Translations under genes and position numbers: made by a program
Notes under the pieces: generated by a model
What the model was told of the DNA's origin: nothing
Databases searched by the model: none
What the model saw: only the letters and a program-made list of their open reading frames with translations
Origin: an uncultured Selenomonadales bacterium
Lineage (GTDB): Bacteria; Bacillota; Negativicutes; Selenomonadales; Selenomonadaceae
Assembly (NCBI GenBank): GCA_937901445.1
Contig: CALDHY010000028.1
Coordinates: forward strand, 1-19,262
Direction of reading: 5' to 3'
DNA length: 19,262 nucleotides
Shown: positions 1,865 through 11,220 of the stretch, one piece after another
Position numbering within the stretch: position 1 is the stretch's first letter
Layout of the letters: each line of letters begins with the position of its first letter

Positions 1865-2490
1865 CTTTGAAAATTATTGAACCTTCAGTTGAACTCGCGC
1901 AGGTTTTAGACGCGGCAGAAATTATGAAACACATTGAACGCGCGGGCAGAGTTTGTTATAAATCTGAATCGAATATTTCAGATGAATCCGCCGAAAAATT
2001 CATTGCGAATATCATAAAAAGCGGGCACGAATCGGTAATTGAACACGTCAGCATAACTTTCAAAATTATTTGTGATCGCGGCGTAACTCATGAACTTGTC
2101 CGCCACAGATTGGCGAGTTATTCGCAAGAGTCAACGCGGTATTGTGACTACAGCGGCGATAAATTCGGCGGCGAATTGACTTTTATAAAGCCGTGTTTTT
2201 GGAATGACAACGACGAAAATTTTTTGTTGTGGCGTCAAACTATGGCAACGATTGAAAAAAATTATCTTGAAATGCGCCAAAAAGGAGCGCGCCCCGAACA
2301 AGCACGCTCCATCTTGCCAAACAGTTTAAAGACAGAAATTTTTATGACGGCAAATCTGCGCGAGTGGCGACACTTTTTAAAATTGCGCACTTCCAAACGC
2401 GCCCATCCTCAAATGCGGGAAATTGCACTCAAAATTTATGAAATCCTCAATGAAAGTTTGCCGGTAATTTTTTCCGATATTGAAATTTAA
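1861..2490 (+). CDS. thyX: Flavin-dependent thymidylate synthase ThyX
   Basis: A 209-residue enzyme that methylates dUMP to dTMP using methylene-tetrahydrofolate, FAD and NADPH, in the cytoplasm. The ThyX signature RHRx7S is complete: R81, H82, R83 and S91, followed by TRY. Upstream, HESVIEHV (56-63) is the usual FAD/dUMP-region helix, and near the C-terminus the LRTSKRAHPQMR segment corresponds to the family's LRxxxxAQxEIR region. Length is normal. The ATG lies inside the stop codon of the NYN gene (ATGA overlap), so expression probably depends on translation of that gene. A structured terminator-like element begins 17 bases after the stop. Confidence 0.95.
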   Translation: MTLKIIEPSVELAQVLDAAEIMKHIERAGRVCYKSESNISDESAEKFIANIIKSGHESVIEHVSITFKIICDRGVTHELVRHRLASYSQESTRYCDYSGDKFGGELTFIKPCFWNDNDENFLLWRQTMATIEKNYLEMRQKGARPEQARSILPNSLKTEIFMTANLREWRHFLKLRTSKRAHPQMREIALKIYEILNESLPVIFSDIEI

Positions 2491-2506
2491 TTTATTTATT
2501 TTAAAT

Positions 2507-2657
2507 GTACTTTCTTTCTTTTAAAAAGACAGAAAGTACCAAAGAAAGAAACTTGCCCGCGCAGGGCACCGGCGTTCCTGTACGCTCGGAGTTGGGGGCT
2601 CGCCCACCTCGCACGCTCCAACATTACCTGGACCCGTGCAAAGCGCGGGCTTTTTTA
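2507..2657 (+). terminator. Composite structured 3' element A (hairpin plus GC stem plus T-run)
   Basis: Directly after thyX lie three parts in order. First is an AT-rich hairpin with arms GTACTTTCT (2507-2515) and AGAAAGTAC (2531-2539), which extends further inward past one mismatch. Next comes an AAAGAAAGAA spacer (2541-2550). Last is a long-range GC stem, GCCCGCGC (2555-2562) with GCGCGGGC (2644-2651), prolonged by GCAC/GTGC across a 3x3 internal loop and ending in TTTTTT (2652-2657). The roughly 80-base interior contains GGGCTCGCCC, a small hairpin. The layout suits termination of thyX transcription, but the interior is far longer than in a simple intrinsic terminator. Element B at 9640-9808 has the same architecture. 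Confidence 0.6.
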
Positions 2658-2668
2658 CAGACAATGTT

Positions 2669-3751
2669 TTAAATTTGTCGAATATATCCGCCGTCATTTT
2701 CTACAATGTAGCCTTTCAATTCCAACTGCAACATTATCGACGAAATTTCAGCCGTCGATATTTCATCAACATTCATTAAAATTTCTTCAAGCGTTATAGT
2801 TTCATCTTGCGGAATTTTATCATAAACAATCTTTTCAGCCGCTTCAAGTTCAACTTTCGGTTCAATTTTTGGAGCGGTTTTTTCGTTGCTTACATTGTAA
2901 TATTCCAGAATGTCAGCCGCGCTTGTAACTAAAATTGCGCCGTCACGTATCAAGTTATGACAACCCGCGCCTTTCACATAAAAAATATTATGCGGCACTG
3001 CAAAAACATCACGCGAATTATCAGCCGCAAAGCCCGCCGTAATTAACGCGCCGGATTTTTCGCCCGCCTCAACCACAATAACGCCGCGTGCAAGCCCTGC
3101 AATTATTCTGTTACGCGCCGGAAAAGTCCCCTTGTCGCCGTCAAAATTAGGCGGAAATTCTGTCAATATTGCGCCGCCGCCTTTTATAATTTCTTCAAAA
3201 AGTTTTCGCTTGTCACGCGGGATTTTATTTATACCGTAGCCCAAAACTGCAACAGTACGCCCGAATTTCAACGCTGCCTGATGTGCGAATGTATCAATTC
3301 CCCGCGCCGCGCCGCTTACAATCGTAATTCCTGCCGCCGCCAATTCTTCAGCCAAAAATTTTGTGGCTTTTTCGCCGTAAGGTGTAGATTCACGAGTTCC
3401 AACTATCGCTATTCTTTCGGCGTGCGGTTTTAATTCGCCGCGATAATAAAAAACCACCGGCGCACCGGAAATTTCTTTCAAAATTGGCGGGTAGTCTTCG
3501 TCATAAAGTGTACAGATTTTAACTTGTTTGATTTTGCAAAATTCAACCAGCTTTTCAACGGCGTCAGGATATTTACTGCGAAATTCTGTAAGGTTATTAA
3601 TAATTTTGGGATTAAAAGCTGTCTGCTGAAGTTGCGGCAATTCTGCGCGCCAAACATTTTCGGCACTGCCAAAAATTTCTACCAGTTTTTGTGTGGTTTT
3701 ACTTCCAATTAAATTTACTGCGTTCAAAGTTGCGAGGTAGTATTTTTCCAT
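2669..3751 (-). CDS. dprA: DNA-protecting protein DprA (Smf)
   Basis: A 360-residue protein that binds incoming single-stranded DNA and loads RecA during natural transformation. Residues 1-75 look like the N-terminal SAM-like region. The Rossmann-type core follows, with GTR (118-120), SGAARGID (146-153), FPARNRIIAGL (210-220) and EAGEKSGAL (228-236), all DprA hallmarks. Residues about 305-360 fit the C-terminal winged-helix domain (DprA_WH). The start codon is ATG at 3751; its GGAGG lies within the last codons of the upstream nuclease gene, 6 bases away, so dprA is the last gene of the murD-murG-ATPase-nuclease-dprA operon. No clear intrinsic terminator with a T-run on this strand is visible downstream before element A. 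Confidence 0.95.
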   Translation of the reverse strand: MEKYYLATLNAVNLIGSKTTQKLVEIFGSAENVWRAELPQLQQTAFNPKIINNLTEFRSKYPDAVEKLVEFCKIKQVKICTLYDEDYPPILKEISGAPVVFYYRGELKPHAERIAIVGTRESTPYGEKATKFLAEELAAAGITIVSGAARGIDTFAHQAALKFGRTVAVLGYGINKIPRDKRKLFEEIIKGGGAILTEFPPNFDGDKGTFPARNRIIAGLARGVIVVEAGEKSGALITAGFAADNSRDVFAVPHNIFYVKGAGCHNLIRDGAILVTSAADILEYYNVSNEKTAPKIEPKVELEAAEKIVYDKIPQDETITLEEILMNVDEISTAEISSIMLQLELKGYIVENDGGYIRQI

Positions 3752-3757
3752 TGAAGT

Positions 3758-5734
3758 TTAGCCTCCACATTTTGGGCAATAAACAAACCAATTCCCGTCC
3801 TGTTCAATGTGATAATTTACGGCGTGCTTTATTATCAAATTATTTGAACACTTACTGCAATGAGTTTTTACCCAAAATTCGCCGCAGTTTTCGCACTTCA
3901 AATAATATTTTATTTTGCCGCTGTGAGTTTTTTTTGGCTCTTTATTTACTTTCGAGCCGCATTTCCAGCAAATTTCCCACTGCCCCATAAAATATTCAAA
4001 AATCATTTTAAAAAACAGTGACAAATTTATTTCAGATTGATTGGGCGTTGAATCGTTTTCAATTTCCGGCAAAAGATAAAACGAGCCTACCTGTTGAAGG
4101 ACGCCATTCATTCCGGAAAATAATTTTTTAAAAAGTACCGTGCCGTTGTAGACAACGTATTTACCCAAAAATTTCCCGCGTTTGTCGTGGCTCCTGTCAG
4201 AATGTACAATGAACGACGCAGAAATTTTTGTAGCGGCGGCTTTTTCAATTTCGGCGATATATCTTTCAAAGCAAACGCCGTATAAATCTTTTTCCTTCCA
4301 ATAGTTAAAACCCTGCCGTTCGTAGTTTCTGTATTTGGCGTCAAGAATAAAAATTTTTGTAATATCATTTGCCGTAACTTTAAAAAGAAAATCCGGGCGC
4401 AAATTACAGCCGGTCGTATTCAGTGATTTATTAATTTCGGTGTTATAAAAAATTTCCATTGACATTGCGGAATTTTCGTGCGTCAAGGAAATTTTTTTAT
4501 TTGGCAGGTTTTCAAGATTGTTAAAAAGGCGGCGCAAAATTTCAAGCGGTGTACCGTCGCTTTTCCAATTTAACTTTACAACAAGAAATTCAATGATTTT
4601 TGCAAGCACCCACCATTCATAAATTTGATACATTTTTTCGGCGGGGAAAGACTTTTCGTCAGCGTCAAATGAAAAGTCAAAAATTTCATCCAGCGTTTTA
4701 AGTTTTTGGTAAGCGCGGCGGTAATTGGCGTCATTTGTAAAAATTTGCGTCATACGCCATTGTTCGTTTTTAATTTCAACTTCCCTGAAAACTTTCAAGC
4801 AAAGGCACTTTTCAAGGTTTTTGAGAATTTCATTTGGCGTAGCGGCAAGATTTTTTTCAGTGTCTTTCAGTTGTTCGTTCAAACTGCGCAGCGTATTTTC
4901 TGCCAAAAATTTATTGTCTTCAGTTTGGAGCGTCAAATTTTTAATGTACTCAATCTGCGCGACAATATCTTGTTTCAAATTTTCGGCTTTAATTTTTTGC
5001 AGTTGAGTTTGAGTTTCGACAAATTTTTTCAGCCGCCAAAGTTTATTTTTAAGCAGGCGATTTTCAAAAATATTCATTGAGAGTTTATCTGTCGAAACTT
5101 GAAATTTTTTTCCGGCTGGCGAAATAACATACTGTCTTATAATTTTATCATCGAAGCGGCGAATTTTTGACAGGTTGCAACTTTGCTGAATCTTTTGCAG
5201 TCCAAAACGCGGGCGGGCGTCAATTTTTTTCATAAGCCGCAATATTTCTTTTGCTTTCTCGTTCAAATTTGCCAAAATTTCAGCCCAAGTACGGTCGCGC
5301 AGATTTTCAAATAAATTGGAATTGTTGTCGTTACTTTTCTGAAAAAGTTCACGGTGAATAAAAAGCAATTCCCTAATCATCGCCGCGCATTCTTCCTTGT
5401 CGGGCAAAATTAAAAGTTTGTGCGTTTCAATAGTTGCGCCGTCCTTTAAAATAAAAATGTACGTCCAGCCGGCAACATTCCGCCCCAAATTTTTATCAAA
5501 GTAAAAATCCAAATGACGCTGAAATTTTTTGTGCTTGCCGTTTTCATCTGCGCTAAATTCCAAAAAATAATTGCCCGCCGCGTCTTCAAAGCTGAACGCG
5601 GGAATATAATTGCCAAAGTAAATGTGCGTTTGAAAGTAGCCGCGCTCGTCAGTGCGAAAAATATTTTCAGTGTATTCATTTTCGGCAAGCGGTGTAAAAT
5701 TTTGGGCGTTAATCATTGTCATCAAAAGTTTCAA
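3758..5734 (-). CDS. DUF2357-type PD-(D/E)XK nuclease, McrC-like, with two zinc ribbons
   Basis: A 658-residue protein, the likely endonuclease subunit of an McrBC-like restriction system. Residues 1-300 resemble the DUF2357 N-terminal region and include helical, coiled-coil-prone sequence (about 225-300). The nuclease domain follows: YEWW (372-375), then P447-D448 in RPDFLF and D465-A-K467 in ILDAKY. Together these give an intact PD-(D/E)XK catalytic set. The C-terminus adds two CxxC pairs of pairs: C589/C592 with C614/C617, and C626/C629 with C653/C656. These look like two zinc ribbons, probably DNA- or protein-binding. The start chosen is TTG at 5734, 9 bases after GGAGG that lies inside the end of the ATPase gene; ATGs at 5722 and 5716 are alternatives. 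It follows the ATPase by 3 bases and precedes dprA by 6. Assignment to DUF2357 rests on recalled family features, not on a search. Confidence 0.78.
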   Translation of the reverse strand: MKLLMTMINAQNFTPLAENEYTENIFRTDERGYFQTHIYFGNYIPAFSFEDAAGNYFLEFSADENGKHKKFQRHLDFYFDKNLGRNVAGWTYIFILKDGATIETHKLLILPDKEECAAMIRELLFIHRELFQKSNDNNSNLFENLRDRTWAEILANLNEKAKEILRLMKKIDARPRFGLQKIQQSCNLSKIRRFDDKIIRQYVISPAGKKFQVSTDKLSMNIFENRLLKNKLWRLKKFVETQTQLQKIKAENLKQDIVAQIEYIKNLTLQTEDNKFLAENTLRSLNEQLKDTEKNLAATPNEILKNLEKCLCLKVFREVEIKNEQWRMTQIFTNDANYRRAYQKLKTLDEIFDFSFDADEKSFPAEKMYQIYEWWVLAKIIEFLVVKLNWKSDGTPLEILRRLFNNLENLPNKKISLTHENSAMSMEIFYNTEINKSLNTTGCNLRPDFLFKVTANDITKIFILDAKYRNYERQGFNYWKEKDLYGVCFERYIAEIEKAAATKISASFIVHSDRSHDKRGKFLGKYVVYNGTVLFKKLFSGMNGVLQQVGSFYLLPEIENDSTPNQSEINLSLFFKMIFEYFMGQWEICWKCGSKVNKEPKKTHSGKIKYYLKCENCGEFWVKTHCSKCSNNLIIKHAVNYHIEQDGNWFVYCPKCGG

Positions 5735-5737
5735 AAA

Positions 5738-7120
5738 TTACCGCCTCCAAAAATCTGCCGTCTTATCTTTCGGCGAATTGATACGTTGCCAAATTTCCTT
5801 GCTTAAATCTCCGGTGCATAATTTTTCAATTTCGGCGGCGTAAAGTTCATAATTTTCTTCATCAAGGCGAACTTTAGGCAAAATGCACGACGCAACTATA
5901 TAATCTAAAAAATTTACAACCTCTGCACAATCCAAAATTTTTTTATTGCTCAAAAGTTTATCGGTTACGCGGCGGCTTATATAAGCAGACAAAAAATCTT
6001 GAAAAAATTTTATTATCGGCTCCAGATTACTTTTTTCATAAACAGCCGAAAAATTTTCACACGGCTTGTATTTCAAAGGTGTTTCATCGCCTACAGGAAT
6101 TTTTTCAACGTCAAAAAATTTTTCAACCCTAATCACGTATGAACGGTCTAAAACTTTTGGGCTAATGTCTAAAGTTGTTTCATCTTGATTCAGAGTGCCG
6201 AAAAACTTTACATTTTTTGGAATTTTAAATTTTGCGGGATAATTTATAAGCATCTGCGCGAGGCGTCGAAGTTCAAAATAATATTTGCGCTCCAACAAAG
6301 ACAAACTTTCAAGCGGCGTACCTTCATAAAAAATTTTATCGCCGTCAATTTTAAAGCCGCTGTTTTGCAATTCATAAAAAATATCTTTCGTCAACTGTTC
6401 ACTGTACAGCGTAACTTCCGGCGCGTCGTTATCCTGCAAAATGCTCAAAAATTCGGCAAAATAATATTCAACGTGCGCCAAATTCATTTCATCAAGGCAA
6501 ATTATATAAAGCTTATCGGGATTATTTTCAGCTTGCCGTGAAAATTTTATAAGCGCGTCAAGAAACGGCGTTGCAACATAATTTTTTTCAAGCGGGTTGT
6601 AGTAGCCGAGTAAATCGCTTTTATCAGTCCAGTTAGATTGAACGGGAATAATTTTGGCGGCGTCGAAGTTGAAAGATTTTGCAAGGGCTTTAACCAAACT
6701 TGTTTTGCCGGTGCCGGGATTTCCCATCAGCAAAATTAATTGGTCTGTTTGCAAGCCGAAATACAAACTTTCCAAAATTCTTTTGTCGTACTTCAAAAAA
6801 TTATATTTAGCCGTGTTCAAATGACTTTGCCAATAAATTATCATTTCGTCGAAGTCATCAAAATTTTTAAGATTTACAGATTTTTTTTGAGTCGAAATTT
6901 TTTTTGCAGAATCCCCGTTAAAAAGATAATCTATAAAATTGTTGTCAAAAATATCAGGTTGCTCCAAATTTTCGGCGGGCGCAGTTTCATCAGCATTTTC
7001 ATCAAAAAAATTAATCCCGTATGCACGTAAGGCATTTAATTTTTCTTCCAGTAAAATTTTTTCTTGTTTCAAACTTTCAATTTCATCTTTCAACGTTTCA
7101 AGTTCATTTTCTTTTTGCAA
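5738..7120 (-). CDS. McrB-like AAA+ ATPase
   Basis: A 460-residue ATPase, the likely NTP-driven motor of a two-gene McrBC-like system with the nuclease encoded 3 bases downstream. Residues 1-32 are a predicted coiled coil. Walker A is GNPGTGKT (133-140). WTDKSDLLGYYNP (164-176) is typical of the McrB/MoxR branch, Walker B is CLDEMN (208-213), the sensor-1 region is GTLNQDETT (308-316), and DRSYVIR (325-331) supplies candidate arginine-finger residues. It is probably a hexameric ring. No DUF3578, EVE, YTH or other modified-base reader is apparent in the first 110 residues, so target recognition may reside in the nuclease subunit (inference). The start is TTG at 7120 with AGGGG upstream, 12 bases after murG. 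Whether GTP or ATP is used cannot be told from sequence. Confidence 0.8.
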   Translation of the reverse strand: MQKENELETLKDEIESLKQEKILLEEKLNALRAYGINFFDENADETAPAENLEQPDIFDNNFIDYLFNGDSAKKISTQKKSVNLKNFDDFDEMIIYWQSHLNTAKYNFLKYDKRILESLYFGLQTDQLILLMGNPGTGKTSLVKALAKSFNFDAAKIIPVQSNWTDKSDLLGYYNPLEKNYVATPFLDALIKFSRQAENNPDKLYIICLDEMNLAHVEYYFAEFLSILQDNDAPEVTLYSEQLTKDIFYELQNSGFKIDGDKIFYEGTPLESLSLLERKYYFELRRLAQMLINYPAKFKIPKNVKFFGTLNQDETTLDISPKVLDRSYVIRVEKFFDVEKIPVGDETPLKYKPCENFSAVYEKSNLEPIIKFFQDFLSAYISRRVTDKLLSNKKILDCAEVVNFLDYIVASCILPKVRLDEENYELYAAEIEKLCTGDLSKEIWQRINSPKDKTADFWRR

Positions 7121-7132
7121 ATTATAACGCCC

Positions 7133-8233
7133 CTATTTCGCCAATTCCAAAATTAAATCTGCGATTGTTGCCGCCGCTTGCGGTTTTCCCAAACTCAAAC
7201 TTGCCGCCGCCATTTTTTTTAATTCGGCGGGATTTTCTAAGAGTTCATTCAAGTTTTGGGATAAAATTTCTGCGTTTAAATCTTTGTTTAAAATCATACG
7301 CGCCGCGCCGACTTTTACCAATGCTTGAGCGTTAAATTCTTGATGATTTTCAGCGGCGTAGGGGAACGGAATTAAAATTGAAGGTACGCCCCGCGCTGTC
7401 AATTCAGCAAGCCCTGTAGCTCCTGCGCGAAAAATTGCAAGGTCTGCCATTGCCATTGCTTGCGGCATATTGTACAGGTAGGGCACAATTTTAATATTTG
7501 GATTGTCAAAGTTAAAGCGGCCGTCTTTCAATTTTTGAGTAACTGAATCAAATTCGCCCTTGCCGGTAACGTGAAGAAATTGGGCGTTGCCTTTAGAATT
7601 TAACAGTACGTCAATCATAGCGTTGTTAATTGCGCGCGCGCCGCGACTGCCGCCGGAAATTAAGACTACCGGCTTATCTTCAGTAAAATTAAATTCCTTC
7701 AAGCCGTCAGATTTTTTAGCGGTTAAAACTTCAGAGCGAATTGGGTTGCCGGTATAAACTGTTTTTTCAGCAGGGAAATTTTTCAACGCAGGTTCAGTAC
7801 CGACTGCGATTTTATTTACAAACTTTGAAAGAATTTTATTTGTAATACCTGCAACGGCGTTTTGTTCCTGAATCAGCGTGGGAATTTTCATAAGTGCGGC
7901 GGCAAGCAGTACCGGTCCGCAAACATAACCGCCCGTACCAACTACAACATTTGGCTGAAATTCTTTTACAATCTTGCTTGCACGCTTGACGCTCAAAATT
8001 GCATCGGCAGCGCGTTTAAAATTTTCTAAAGTAAAATGACGTTCAAAGCCGCCCTCTAAACTTAGCGCAGTAAAATTTATTCCCGCCTTCGGTACAATAT
8101 CAGATTCAAGCCCCTGTTTAGTTCCAACGTACAAAAATTCGGCGTTCGGCATTTTCTTTTTTACGGCGTCAATCAAAGTCAGCGCGGGGTAAATGTGTCC
8201 GCCCGTGCCGCCGCCTGAAACAATTATTTTCAT
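7133..8233 (-). CDS. murG: UDP-GlcNAc:lipid I N-acetylglucosaminyltransferase MurG
   Basis: A 366-residue GT-B glycosyltransferase that converts lipid I to lipid II on the inner face of the membrane, the last cytoplasmic step of peptidoglycan precursor synthesis. The glycine-rich loop GGGTGGH (7-13) binds the lipid-linked acceptor. VVVGTGGYVCGP, SGGSRGARAIN and the donor-site segment GLAELTARGVPSILIPFP are all typical of the family. The ATG overlaps the stop of murD by 4 bases (ATGA), indicating coupling. In many bacteria ftsW lies between murD and murG; it is absent here, and murC and murB do not follow. The next gene downstream is the McrB-like ATPase, 12 bases on. Confidence 0.97.
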   Translation of the reverse strand: MKIIVSGGGTGGHIYPALTLIDAVKKKMPNAEFLYVGTKQGLESDIVPKAGINFTALSLEGGFERHFTLENFKRAADAILSVKRASKIVKEFQPNVVVGTGGYVCGPVLLAAALMKIPTLIQEQNAVAGITNKILSKFVNKIAVGTEPALKNFPAEKTVYTGNPIRSEVLTAKKSDGLKEFNFTEDKPVVLISGGSRGARAINNAMIDVLLNSKGNAQFLHVTGKGEFDSVTQKLKDGRFNFDNPNIKIVPYLYNMPQAMAMADLAIFRAGATGLAELTARGVPSILIPFPYAAENHQEFNAQALVKVGAARMILNKDLNAEILSQNLNELLENPAELKKMAAASLSLGKPQAAATIADLILELAK

Positions 8234-9594
8234 AGTGCATTAACAATCCTTTTAAAATCTTTGCCGCGTTGCTCGAATCCGTCGTACATATCGAAACTCG
8301 CGCAGGCAGGACTCAACAAAACAACTTGCGGAGCCTCTGCAATATTTTTGGCAAGTTCAACGGCTTTTTCCATTGAATAGCCCGCCTCAAGAATTTTTTC
8401 GGCAGGGAAATTATTTTTCAGTGCATCAGCTTTAAAACGCGCCGCCGCGTCTCCAACTAAAATTAAATAATCTACGCGCTGATTTACCAACTGCAAAAAG
8501 TCTGTTAAATCTGTAAGTTTATCGTCGCCGCCCGCAATTAAAATGATATTGCCGCTGAAAGTTTCCAACGCCTTAATCGCAGAATCTGTGTTGGTTGCCT
8601 TTGAATCGTTGTAATATTTTACGCCGTTAATTTCCCGCACAAATTCAATTCGGTGCTCAACGCCCGTAAACGCCTTTAAAACGCACGAAATATTTTCTGC
8701 GGTACAATTTACCAAAAAAGCCATTAAAGCCGCGCACAAGGCATTCTCGACGTTGTGAGAGCCTTTTATTCCAAGTTCGTCCACCGTGCAAAGTTCAAAA
8801 GTTTTGCCGCCGTAATTTATAACAAGTTTATCGCCGTCAAGGTACGCGCCTTCGTCCAAAATTTTTTTGCGGCTGAAGTAGACAACTTTGCATTTGGCGC
8901 GGTTTTTAATTTCCTGTACAAGTTCATCGTCGTAATTTAAAACCAAAAAATCGTCCGCTGTTTCTTGTGCAAAAATTTTTTCTTTCATAGCTTGATAAAC
9001 TGCCATTGTACCGTGTCTTTTCAAGTGGTCGGGCGTAATGTTCAAAATTGCCGAAATGTGCGGCTTAAAATTATTTGTAGCCTCCATTTGATAACTTGAA
9101 ATTTCCGCCGCAATACAACCGCCCGCGCCGGTTTCAAGTGCAACTTCAGAAAGTGCCACGCCGATATTTCCGCCTACTCCAACTTTTTTGTAAGCAGTTT
9201 CAAGTAAAAGCCCCAGCAAAGTTGTAGTGGTAGTTTTGCCGTTGGTGCCGGTAATTGCGCAAATTGGAGACTGCGCCAAATTATAAGCAAGTTCAACTTC
9301 ACTGATAACGGGAATATTTTTTTGAAGTGCAGATTGTAAAATTGGAACGCGCAAAGGAACGGCGGGCGAAACAATAATTAAATCGACGCCGTTTAAAAGT
9401 TCTTCAGTTTGTGCGCCGAATTTTAAATTTATTCCCACATTGCGCAATTCGTCAAAATTATATTTTAAATCAGATTCGTTTTTGGCGTCGCTAAGTGTAA
9501 CATTTGCGCCGAATTTTTTTGTAACTTTTGCCGCTGCAAAGCCGCTGATACCCGCGCCAATTACGAGGATATTTTTATTTGTAAATTCAATCAA
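8230..9594 (-). CDS. murD: UDP-N-acetylmuramoylalanine--D-glutamate ligase MurD
   Basis: A 454-residue cytoplasmic ligase that adds D-glutamate to UDP-MurNAc-L-Ala using ATP. The N-terminal Rossmann-like domain opens with NILVIGAGISG (8-18). The ATP-binding P-loop is GTNGKTT (116-122), and HNVENALCA plus NDSKATNTDS mark the central and C-terminal Mur-ligase domains. Length is normal. The start is TTG at 9594, with AAAGGAG about 10 bases upstream; the next residues, IEFTNKNILVIG, fit the usual beginning of MurD. It is the first gene of the five-gene operon ending in dprA. I see no convincing promoter between it and element B at 9640. Confidence 0.96.
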   Translation of the reverse strand: MIEFTNKNILVIGAGISGFAAAKVTKKFGANVTLSDAKNESDLKYNFDELRNVGINLKFGAQTEELLNGVDLIIVSPAVPLRVPILQSALQKNIPVISEVELAYNLAQSPICAITGTNGKTTTTTLLGLLLETAYKKVGVGGNIGVALSEVALETGAGGCIAAEISSYQMEATNNFKPHISAILNITPDHLKRHGTMAVYQAMKEKIFAQETADDFLVLNYDDELVQEIKNRAKCKVVYFSRKKILDEGAYLDGDKLVINYGGKTFELCTVDELGIKGSHNVENALCAALMAFLVNCTAENISCVLKAFTGVEHRIEFVREINGVKYYNDSKATNTDSAIKALETFSGNIILIAGGDDKLTDLTDFLQLVNQRVDYLILVGDAAARFKADALKNNFPAEKILEAGYSMEKAVELAKNIAEAPQVVLLSPACASFDMYDGFEQRGKDFKRIVNAL

Positions 9595-9639
9595 ATTGGA
9601 AAAACTCCTTTATAAAATTTAAAATCCAAGATAAAGATT

Positions 9640-9808
9640 AAAAAGCCGCGCACCGCACTTCGTTTTTACCGGCAACGCTGAAATTTCTGCAACGCATGCA
9701 AACGTGGCGCAAACTTTAAATCGGTATAATCTTCAACGTGAAAAACGCAGGTGCGCGGCGATTCTTTCTTTTAGGCGGCTTTTCTTTCTTCTAAAGAAAG
9801 AAAAACCG
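9640..9808 (-). terminator. Composite structured 3' element B, same architecture as element A
   Basis: Read on the minus strand after the aminopeptidase stop, it opens with an AT-rich hairpin, arms around 9776-9790 and 9794-9808, 15 pairs with one mismatch. Next comes an AAAAGAAAGAA spacer, then a perfect 10-base stem GCCGCGCACC (9750-9759 with 9645-9654) closing a 95-base interior, and TTTTT (9644-9640). Inside, CGTTTTT (9661-9667) pairs with AAAAACG (9741-9747), and ACCG (9668-9671) with CGGT (9722-9725), so the interior is itself folded. The position and layout suit termination of the aminopeptidase transcript, but the long structured interior resembles a small RNA or repeat element. It almost fills the 225-base gap before murD. 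Confidence 0.6.
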
Positions 9809-9819
9809 TGTTAAAAAAA

Positions 9820-11220
9820 TTAAATTTCTTTCAAAAATGCAACATAACCTTTTTTAGTTTCGTAGACGTCAATTTTTGAAACGGCTTCCCAAGGGGCGTG
9901 CATTGAAAGTACAGCAACACCGCTGTCAATAACCTCCATACCGTAAACCGCCATAATATGAGCGATAGTACCGCCGCCGCCCAAATCGACTTTGCCGAGT
10001 TCGGAAAATTGGTAGCCGACGTTATTTTTGTCAAGGATAGCGCGCAATTTGCCGACAAATTCAGCATTGGCTTCACTTGCGCCGGATTTTCCGCGACTGC
10101 CGGTAAATTTATTGAAAACCATCCCTTTGCCCAAATATGCAACGTTTTTCTTATCGTAAGCAGAGGCGTAAAGTGCATCGTACGCGCTTGAAACGTCCGA
10201 ACTAAGCATAAACGAATTTTGCAAGGCGCGGCGCAGTGCCAATTCTGTATATTGCCCGCAAACGTTCATTAATTCGGCAAGCGCATTTTCAAAAAACTTT
10301 GACTGCATACCGGTTGCGCCGAAACTTCCAATTTCTTCCTTGTCAACCAAAAGACAGCAAGCCGTCCTGTCAAGATTTTCATTGGCAATTTCCAACATTG
10401 CAACAAGCGAAGTATAAGAGCAAACTCTGTCATCATGCCCGTAAGCTAAAACCATACTTTTATCAATGCCAAGTTCACGCGCCCTGCCCGCCGGTACAAG
10501 TGCAATTTCAGCCGAAAGAAAATCTTCAGGCTCAATGTTGTAATTGTCTTTGAGAATTTTTAAAACGCCCGCCTTGACGGATTCTTTGTCTTTTTCGTCT
10601 TTGAGCGGATAATTTCCAACCAGAATATCTAAATTTTCGCCCTCAACAACTTTTGTAGCGTCTTTCTTCATTTGTTCCTGCGCGAGGTGTATAAGTAAAT
10701 CTGTAACGCAAAAAACGGGGTCTTCAGGTTTTTCGCCAATATTAATTTTTATGGTTGTACCGTCTTTTTTGATAACGACGCCGTGCATTGCAAGCGGCAA
10801 GGTTACCCATTGATATTTTTTAATTCCGCCGTAATAATGAGTGTCAAGGTAAGCAAGCCCGCCGTCTTCATAAAGCGGATTTTGTTTCAAGTCAAGGTGG
10901 CAAGTGTCAATGTGCGCGCCCAAAATTTTCAAGCCGTTTTGAATAGGTTCACTGCCAATTTGAAAAAGTACAAGCGATTTATTCATAAAAGCATAATAAA
11001 CTTTATCGCCCGCGTTGAGGCGTTGACGATTGGAAATAACGTCGCGCAGATTTTTATAACCGAATTTTTCAGCCTGTTCAATCGCAAATTCAACGCTCTC
11101 GCGTTCAGTCTTACAGGTACTCATAAAGTCAATATAATTTTTATTGAGTTCCTCAAGATTTTTTTTATCTTCGTCAGTGTACTTGCTCCAAATTGAAGGC
11201 TTTTTTTCTTTGTCAGACAT
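9820..11220 (-). CDS. M18 family metallo-aminopeptidase
   Basis: A 466-residue cytoplasmic zinc aminopeptidase of the M18 family (yeast aminopeptidase I / bacterial ApeA-ApeB type), removing N-terminal residues from peptides and forming large oligomers in known members. The co-catalytic site residues are visible: H103 in GAHIDTCH, D264 in GHDDRV, E295/E296 in DKEEIGS, D342 in SSDV and H441 in SMHAPWE. I take the ATG at 11220. The upstream TTG at 11238 starts the AAGGAAG that serves as ribosome-binding site, so the longer reading frame is unlikely. It has its own predicted promoter (11254-11282) downstream of the obg terminator, and element B follows its stop. Confidence 0.93.
   Translation of the reverse strand: MSDKEKKPSIWSKYTDEDKKNLEELNKNYIDFMSTCKTERESVEFAIEQAEKFGYKNLRDVISNRQRLNAGDKVYYAFMNKSLVLFQIGSEPIQNGLKILGAHIDTCHLDLKQNPLYEDGGLAYLDTHYYGGIKKYQWVTLPLAMHGVVIKKDGTTIKINIGEKPEDPVFCVTDLLIHLAQEQMKKDATKVVEGENLDILVGNYPLKDEKDKESVKAGVLKILKDNYNIEPEDFLSAEIALVPAGRARELGIDKSMVLAYGHDDRVCSYTSLVAMLEIANENLDRTACCLLVDKEEIGSFGATGMQSKFFENALAELMNVCGQYTELALRRALQNSFMLSSDVSSAYDALYASAYDKKNVAYLGKGMVFNKFTGSRGKSGASEANAEFVGKLRAILDKNNVGYQFSELGKVDLGGGGTIAHIMAVYGMEVIDSGVAVLSMHAPWEAVSKIDVYETKKGYVAFLKEI

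Follow-up and report, generated by a model that had tools for sequence, protein, structure and literature searches.

The window, i.e., the complete stretch of DNA that was analysed, comprises 19,262 nucleotides (contig CALDHY010000028.1, GenBank assembly GCA_937901445.1) from an uncultured bacterium of the Selenomonadaceae, likely a rumen bacterium. Between murG and dprA it encodes a McrB-like AAA+ ATPase carrying an NxD motif and a McrC-like PD-(D/E)xK nuclease. We regard it as probable that the two proteins constitute a predicted immune complex of the CoCoNuT type, resembling type IV restriction, and that their genes form a likely old cassette in the murG-dprA junction that would be transcribed with the cell-wall operon. 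This interpretation is built on the anatomy of the pair, its intact motifs, empty junctions and a decayed copy in relatives, ratios of nonsynonymous to synonymous substitution rates (dN/dS) well below 1 and a synonymous divergence (dS) in the range seen for the flanking genes. The defence role of the pair is predicted by analogy.

The gene pair and its domain architecture

The genes follow each other on the minus strand in the order murD, murG, AAA+ gene, nuclease gene and dprA, with gaps of 12, 3 and 6 bases from murG to dprA as read from the open reading frames (Table 1). The names murD, murG and dprA are backed by profile scores above the curated cut-offs. Reading frames and profiles bear out the position of the pair given in a preliminary description of the window, and the coordinates confirm its tight, co-directional spacing with the neighbours. 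It was also stated there that neither promoter nor terminator lies between these genes. For terminators this holds, as a scan of positions 2400-9900 listed no minus-strand terminator-like site from murD through the nuclease gene and only two further on, one within dprA (3029-3012) and one after it (2568-2554). For promoters it holds in part only, as a TTGGAA-18-TATAAT promoter-like match ends one base before the TTG start codon of the AAA+ gene; since the match abuts this codon, its transcript would begin within the AAA+ gene. Such promoter-like matches are over-represented across the window (28 observed versus 15.1 +/- 3.6 in shuffles). The pair would likely be transcribed together with the essential cell-wall operon.

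The AAA+ protein matches the Pfam profile AAA_5 with 35.9 bits (cut-off 22). An in-frame stop codon of murG is located five codons upstream of its TTG, so that the protein can hardly have a longer N-terminus. The insert between Walker B and the NxD motif is predicted to form two helices (492-504 and 526-544) in the structure model of the homologue P0049, and inserts of similar length are found in distant homologues from Bacillus and related bacteria (P0143, P0149, P0159). The tally of NxD motifs is a pattern count; P0131 did not match the pattern for Walker B and P0145 not that for NxD, although both read NQDE. In the model of P0049 the N-terminus contains strands 35-44, 49-57 and 76-79, helix 82-90 and strands 98-105 and 111-117, an order that is OB-like by eye, followed by a helix of 134 residues, and the protein of the related genome G001 has the same N-terminus. 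In the window protein this OB-like domain is absent (aligned coverage 0.00) and the coiled coil is reduced to a stub of approximately 35 residues, which in the alignment corresponds to the end of the long helix of P0049. The Pfam cold-shock domain was found in none of five CnuB N-termini, including that of P0049, and in none of three CnuC inserts; the sole Pfam match below 0.01 among them was CyRPA in the G001 N-terminus (20.5 bits, cut-off 38.1). Accordingly, the label OB-like rests on the strand order in one model.

In an alignment and tree of 65 of the 120 listed CnuB homologues, the window protein falls into a clade of 15 members, eight of which lack the OB-like domain and seven of which keep it. 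Mixed sister pairs with good support are P0050/P0051 (100) and P0052/P0058 (99). Six changes of the domain were counted in this clade, a rough count as most supports are low (seven of them 20-53). Some short CnuB proteins may be truncated through gene calling or by the end of a contig; P0052, which has no OB-like domain, comes from a contig of 133.8 kb.

The nuclease matches PDDEXK_7 (PF04411) in Pfam with 29.4 bits (cut-off 22.1), and the best PDB matches of its structure model (predicted local distance difference test score 86.8) are McrC proteins. The catalytic site D...DAK is intact and looks active, with the residues P447, D448, D465 and K467 invariant in all 46 rows covering them (of 47 rows). 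The stalk of the G002 nuclease (P0017) is extended by inserts of 30 and 140 residues, and similar ones occur in several other nucleases; by comparison the window nuclease contains no stalk insert of at least 25 residues, which is also true for P0002-P0015. In the G002 enzyme this stretch includes, by eye, a cold-shock-like string that yields no Pfam match. The nuclease alignment used has 44 rows, i.e., 43 of the 47 listed homologues and the window protein.

Table 1. Genes, domains and motifs of the murD-dprA region, in window coordinates
Feature	Positions	Strand	Remarks
murD	9594-8230	minus	TIGR01087, 418.9 bits (cut-off 211.95); first gene of the gene run
murG	8233-7133	minus	TIGR01133, 303.2 bits (cut-off 250.25); upstream flank of the cassette
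cnuB-like AAA+ gene	7120-5738	minus	TTG start, 460 amino acids; AAA_5 and PDC-M26A matches
Walker A GNPGTGKT	6701-6724	minus	AAA+ residues 133-140
Walker B DEMN	6482-6493	minus	AAA+ residues 210-213
Insert between Walker B and NxD	6236-6403 (bounds approximate)	minus	some 47 residues more than in E. coli McrB
NxD motif NQDE (sensor 1)	6179-6190	minus	AAA+ residues 311-314
cnuC-like nuclease gene	5734-3758	minus	TTG start, 658 amino acids; PF04411 and PDC-M26B matches
Ig/FN3-like beta-sandwich	5405-5734	minus	nuclease residues 1-110
DUF2357-like helical part with stalk	4679-5398	minus	nuclease residues 113-352; stalk helices within 223-297
PD-(D/E)xK nuclease domain	4076-4642	minus	D448 and D465-A466-K467
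Zinc-ribbon-like tail	3764-3976	minus	four CxxC motifs, at residues 589, 614, 626 and 653
dprA	3751-2669	minus	TIGR00732, 241.7 bits (cut-off 191.15); downstream flank of the cassette

Past dprA, the opposite strand carries thyX, a gene with NYN domain and a DUF441 gene.

Relation to known immune systems

The anatomy of the pair is that of Type I CoCoNuT (CnuB/CnuC) and of PDC-M26, a phage defence candidate of PADLOC. As described in the main text of PMC11090510, Type I CoCoNuTs are two-gene McrB/McrC-like pairs, in which an NxD motif is followed by E and a coiled coil precedes the AAA+ domain, and in which CnuC combines an Ig-like beta-sandwich, a DUF2357-like stalk, an active-looking PD-(D/E)xK site and a zinc ribbon. 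The NxD motif, the catalytic residues of CnuC and its N-terminal Ig-like beta-sandwich are all present in the window, and the insert between Walker B and NxD may correspond to the one described for Type I-A. There are also differences to the described systems: the window CnuB lacks the CSD/OB-like domain, which is "usually" present, and, in the alignment, retains only the stub of the long N-terminal coiled coil, and the window CnuC lacks the CSD-like stalk insert in DUF2357 of Type I-A. The describers of CoCoNuT predict an action on RNA (PMC11090510), and according to section 7 of the same article no McrB GTPase with NxD motif has been characterised (Bell et al., 2024). Its main text contains none of the words "housekeeping", "murG", "dprA" and "peptidoglycan".

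When compared with defence-system models, a check suggested in the preliminary description, each window protein matched its corresponding PDC-M26 model, the AAA+ protein PDC-M26A (2.9e-70) and the nuclease PDC-M26B (4.3e-11). The best stretches are partial, covering positions 223-454 of 724 in the A model and 762-837 of 845 in the B model. The nucleases of G001 and G085 gave no PDC-M26 match at 1e-5, and the main text of a survey of rumen defence systems (PMC13356809) does not name PDC-M26.

Occurrence, insertion sites and history of the cassette

A search of genome contigs revealed two other carriers, Selenomonadaceae metagenome-assembled genomes from goat rumen and red deer, in each of which the pair separates murG from dprA. 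That the same two genes recur in identical order and position in two further genomes is more than chance. The genus of G001 is represented here by 66 genomes. A clear nuclease homologue is present in five of these; a sixth, G061, has a weak match (E 1.7e-4) that was left out of the count, and G125 yielded only fragments near a contig end. A match to dprA together with a murG match above its cut-off was obtained for 55 of the 66 genomes (tables read by eye; dprA of G044 and G051 is under the curated cut-off). The two genes share one contig in seven of these 55 and adjoin in six; in 48 they are on different contigs, which can also stem from fragmented assemblies. Of the six relatives with adjacent genes, G001 and G002 have the pair in between and G006 has a remnant of it, while the junction is clean in G021, G035 and G036. 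The best comparison is G035, in which the order NYN-thyX-dprA-murG-murD is as in the window and only 9 bases separate the murG stop from the dprA start. The comparison of murG-dprA intervals proposed earlier thus revealed the pair in some relatives and a clean junction in others. In the remnant (L077:5011-7089) stop codons break the AAA+ gene after the NxD motif, and the nuclease has lost approximately 617 residues including the catalytic site while its frame is still open up to dprA, perhaps due to selection for translation into dprA. The gene dprA itself is retained where the pair is absent or decayed.

Several side observations concern the flanks. By eye, G002 and G006 share the string TGATATAAT ahead of dprA (L002, L077), possibly dprA's own promoter, and a TATAAT-like box is located between the nuclease gene and dprA in this branch. 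In sister pairs, cassette present or not, the divergence of DprA is much faster than that of its neighbours MurG and MurD (74% versus 93-94% between window and G001, 71% versus 87-90% between G021 and G036). The palindromic intergenic sequence after dprA (window 2500-2590) is a dispersed repeat with at least 41 matches in G035, at least 10 in G001, 10 in G002, 3 in G006 and 1 in G036; no match was found in G021, G013 and G052, and no copy was observed at the murG end of the cassette.

Related pairs are found at further sites. In G013 a pair is located between tsaD-rimI and rph-rdgB, distributed over two contigs (L082 on G013:C121, L081 on G013:C204), with the AAA+ gene split into two frames. 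A match to rph is present in 63 of the 66 genomes and 30 of the loci were read: rimI and rph adjoin without the pair, 15 to 278 bases apart, in G004, G025 and G052, and no rimI was seen upstream of rph in 26. In G052 a related pair lies 18 bases before hisZ (L085:5422-11154); at the 29 further hisZ loci that were read no nuclease precedes hisZ, and G004, G025 and G013 share a different sequence there, coding by eye. Within the order, eight of 189 genomes have the nuclease at E 1e-20 or better. Five of the eight nucleases are located in or against housekeeping operons (G001, G002, G006, G013, G052), two are beside known defence genes, i.e., Cas6 and RAMPs, close to an integrase, in G085 and GmrSD in G238, and that of G079 is beside an AAA-ATPase_like/PDDEXK_9 protein without assigned role. 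As the five housekeeping-operon carriers all belong to one genus and represent at most three sites, they are not five independent events. In G238 (L196, G238:C41) the pair is followed by a frame of 721 amino acids, which has no Pfam match at 1e-4, and then by the GmrSD type IV restriction gene.

With its clean murG-dprA junctions and the additional rimI-rph site the cassette resembles the minimal mobile elements of Neisseria, which were described as whole-gene cassettes between two conserved genes that are moved by homologous recombination (PMC3082526); one of the Neisseria cassettes is a restriction-modification system between pheS and pheT (PMC7973814). As in these accounts, a defence cassette is located between conserved housekeeping genes in some lineages only, so that the behaviour of the site is of an already known kind. 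In contrast, different cassettes alternate at one site in Neisseria, while the murG-dprA site displays presence, decay or absence of one kind of cassette among the six relatives, and the cassette is a CoCoNuT instead of a restriction-modification system. No CoCoNuT in such a position turned up in the literature searches, for which result listings and the papers cited here were read.

In a tree built from M18 peptidase, MurG and Obg (for G002 a 94-residue piece of Obg) the window groups with G001 (support 83), followed by G035 (100), G021/G036 (90) and G002/G006 (98). The node of window and G001 has a support of 66 in a five-gene tree and of 53-82 in single genes, and dprA alone groups G035 with the window (70). 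The nucleases of the murG-dprA site form a clade (support 99) to which the copies of G013 and G052 do not belong and which includes metagenome proteins without known genomic position. In the comparison of window and G001, the AAA+ gene and the nuclease gene have dN/dS values of 0.345 and 0.272 (murG, murD and dprA: 0.089-0.201) and dS values of 0.46 and 0.72, respectively (flanks: 0.30-0.83). As its dS is within the range of the flanks, the pair seems to be a long-standing resident that is kept by purifying selection. The suggestion that the insertion is either old or cleanly integrated is thus supported by both the junctions and the dS values. Third-position guanine-cytosine (GC) content is near that of the flanks in the window (34 and 40 versus 36-40%) and in G002 (48 and 52 versus 44-50%), and clearly lower in the AAA+ gene of G001 (30 versus 37-44%) and the pair of G013 (32 and 35 versus 42%).

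The simplest history is likely one old gain in the ancestor of the group and several subsequent losses, for which recombination of the conserved flanks with one another is the probable route. Alternatively, cassettes could have been inserted or exchanged at murG-dprA repeatedly, by homologous recombination of the flanks as in a strict minimal mobile element. This would explain the patchy presence on the flank tree with its exact empty junctions, and a second clean junction, rimI-rph, exists in the same genus. We consider this possible but somewhat unlikely, as the dS of the pair falls inside the range of its flanks, the branching of the nucleases does not contradict the flank tree and a single kind of cassette was observed at the site; 49 of the 55 genomes with both genes offer no adjacent murG-dprA to check. 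More speculative, and unlikely as a whole, is a wider view: CoCoNuT pairs of rumen Selenomonadaceae might be promoterless minimal mobile elements of essential operons (murG/dprA, rimI/rph, before hisZ) that are swapped or removed by flank recombination and that swap or shed the sensing N-terminal domain while motor and nuclease stay, so that innate immunity would travel with core metabolism as a constitutive passenger, away from defence islands.

Predicted function, alternatives and significance

In a CoCoNuT-type complex the AAA+ subunits would assemble into a nucleotide-hydrolysing ring, into which the stalk of the nuclease would plug, stimulating hydrolysis as McrC does for McrB. Sensing of foreign nucleic acid, RNA or DNA, would release the nuclease, and its cutting would stop the phage or the infected cell. 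As the OB-like domain is absent, recognition would have to be the task of the Ig-like domain, of the zinc ribbon or of another partner.

Several observations weigh against this reading. Lacking the OB-like domain and with its coiled-coil stub, the window copy could be partly inactive, and we know of no activity for any close relative. The profile DUF2357, which had been suggested for checking, scores 19.8 in the nuclease and stays under its Pfam cut-off of 23.3. The nuclease alignment compares weakly with the single E. coli McrC sequence (7.7%) and, searched against PDB sequences, returned no McrC and nothing relevant. For the AAA+ protein, VIA-align places MoxR-type, RavA and MCM ATPases level with McrB, and the CnuB alignment ranks midasin first among PDB sequences (6.8e-10) and McrB near the end of the list (5.4e-4); these tests therefore do not tell McrB from other AAA+ proteins. 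The overall GC content of the pair in the window (35.0 and 37.1%) is below that of the flanks (41.3-43.2%), and one gain with losses costs the same number of events as two gains at one site. Given the TATAAT-like box, dprA of the G002/G006 branch need not depend on read-through.

The preliminary description had called the pair McrBC-like, which is correct for the superfamily; the pair is not a canonical McrBC that cuts DNA with modified cytosine, a function we consider very unlikely. With McrBC of E. coli K-12 it shares the AAA+ fold, the stalked nuclease and the neighbouring genes, its motifs are of the superfamily and its nuclease site is intact. However, the E. coli system has NxxD and 54 residues between Walker B and sensor 1, the window protein NxD and 101 residues; furthermore, E. 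coli McrBC contains DUF3578 and no Ig-like domain (main text of PMC11090510), while the window AAA+ protein has no match to this methylcytosine-binding domain at E 0.01 and the window nuclease has additional Ig-like and zinc-ribbon-like parts. Both NxxD and DUF3578 were tested without success and the canonical label was rejected, the CoCoNuT architecture standing in its place.

It was also proposed earlier that the pair polices DNA taken up by competence. A surveillance of DNA acquired by transformation, linked to DprA by co-expression, would fit the 6-base gap to dprA and the comEC family (PF03772) in G001, G002 and G006, but the genomes with an empty site, G021, G035 and G036, contain the family just as well. 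It was found in seven of eight genomes tried, G013 being the exception, and as carriers and non-carriers do not differ the link to competence was rejected. Moreover, related pairs precede rph and hisZ, genes without known role in transformation, and dprA persists without an intact pair. Lacking specific support, this proposal appears very unlikely. Also unlikely is a domesticated pair with a housekeeping role in cell wall or RNA handling that has lost its defence function. The operon position, the purifying selection and the missing OB-like domain would agree with it; however, the pair is absent or decayed in four of the six relatives with adjacent murG and dprA, a clear nuclease homologue is missing from 61 of the genus's 66 genomes, and relatives outside the genus adjoin type III CRISPR genes or GmrSD.

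Defence genes are usually sought in islands beside mobile elements. The CoCoNuT-like pair in the murG-dprA junction suggests that small immune cassettes can settle cleanly within essential operons and would then be switched on with them. If this is true, the locus would constitute a natural experiment on the movement, persistence and constitutive expression of small recombinase-free immune modules, because one and the same genus offers exactly empty sites, a copy in decay and another site in an operon. The form without OB-like domain would in addition allow asking which part of a CoCoNuT senses its target.

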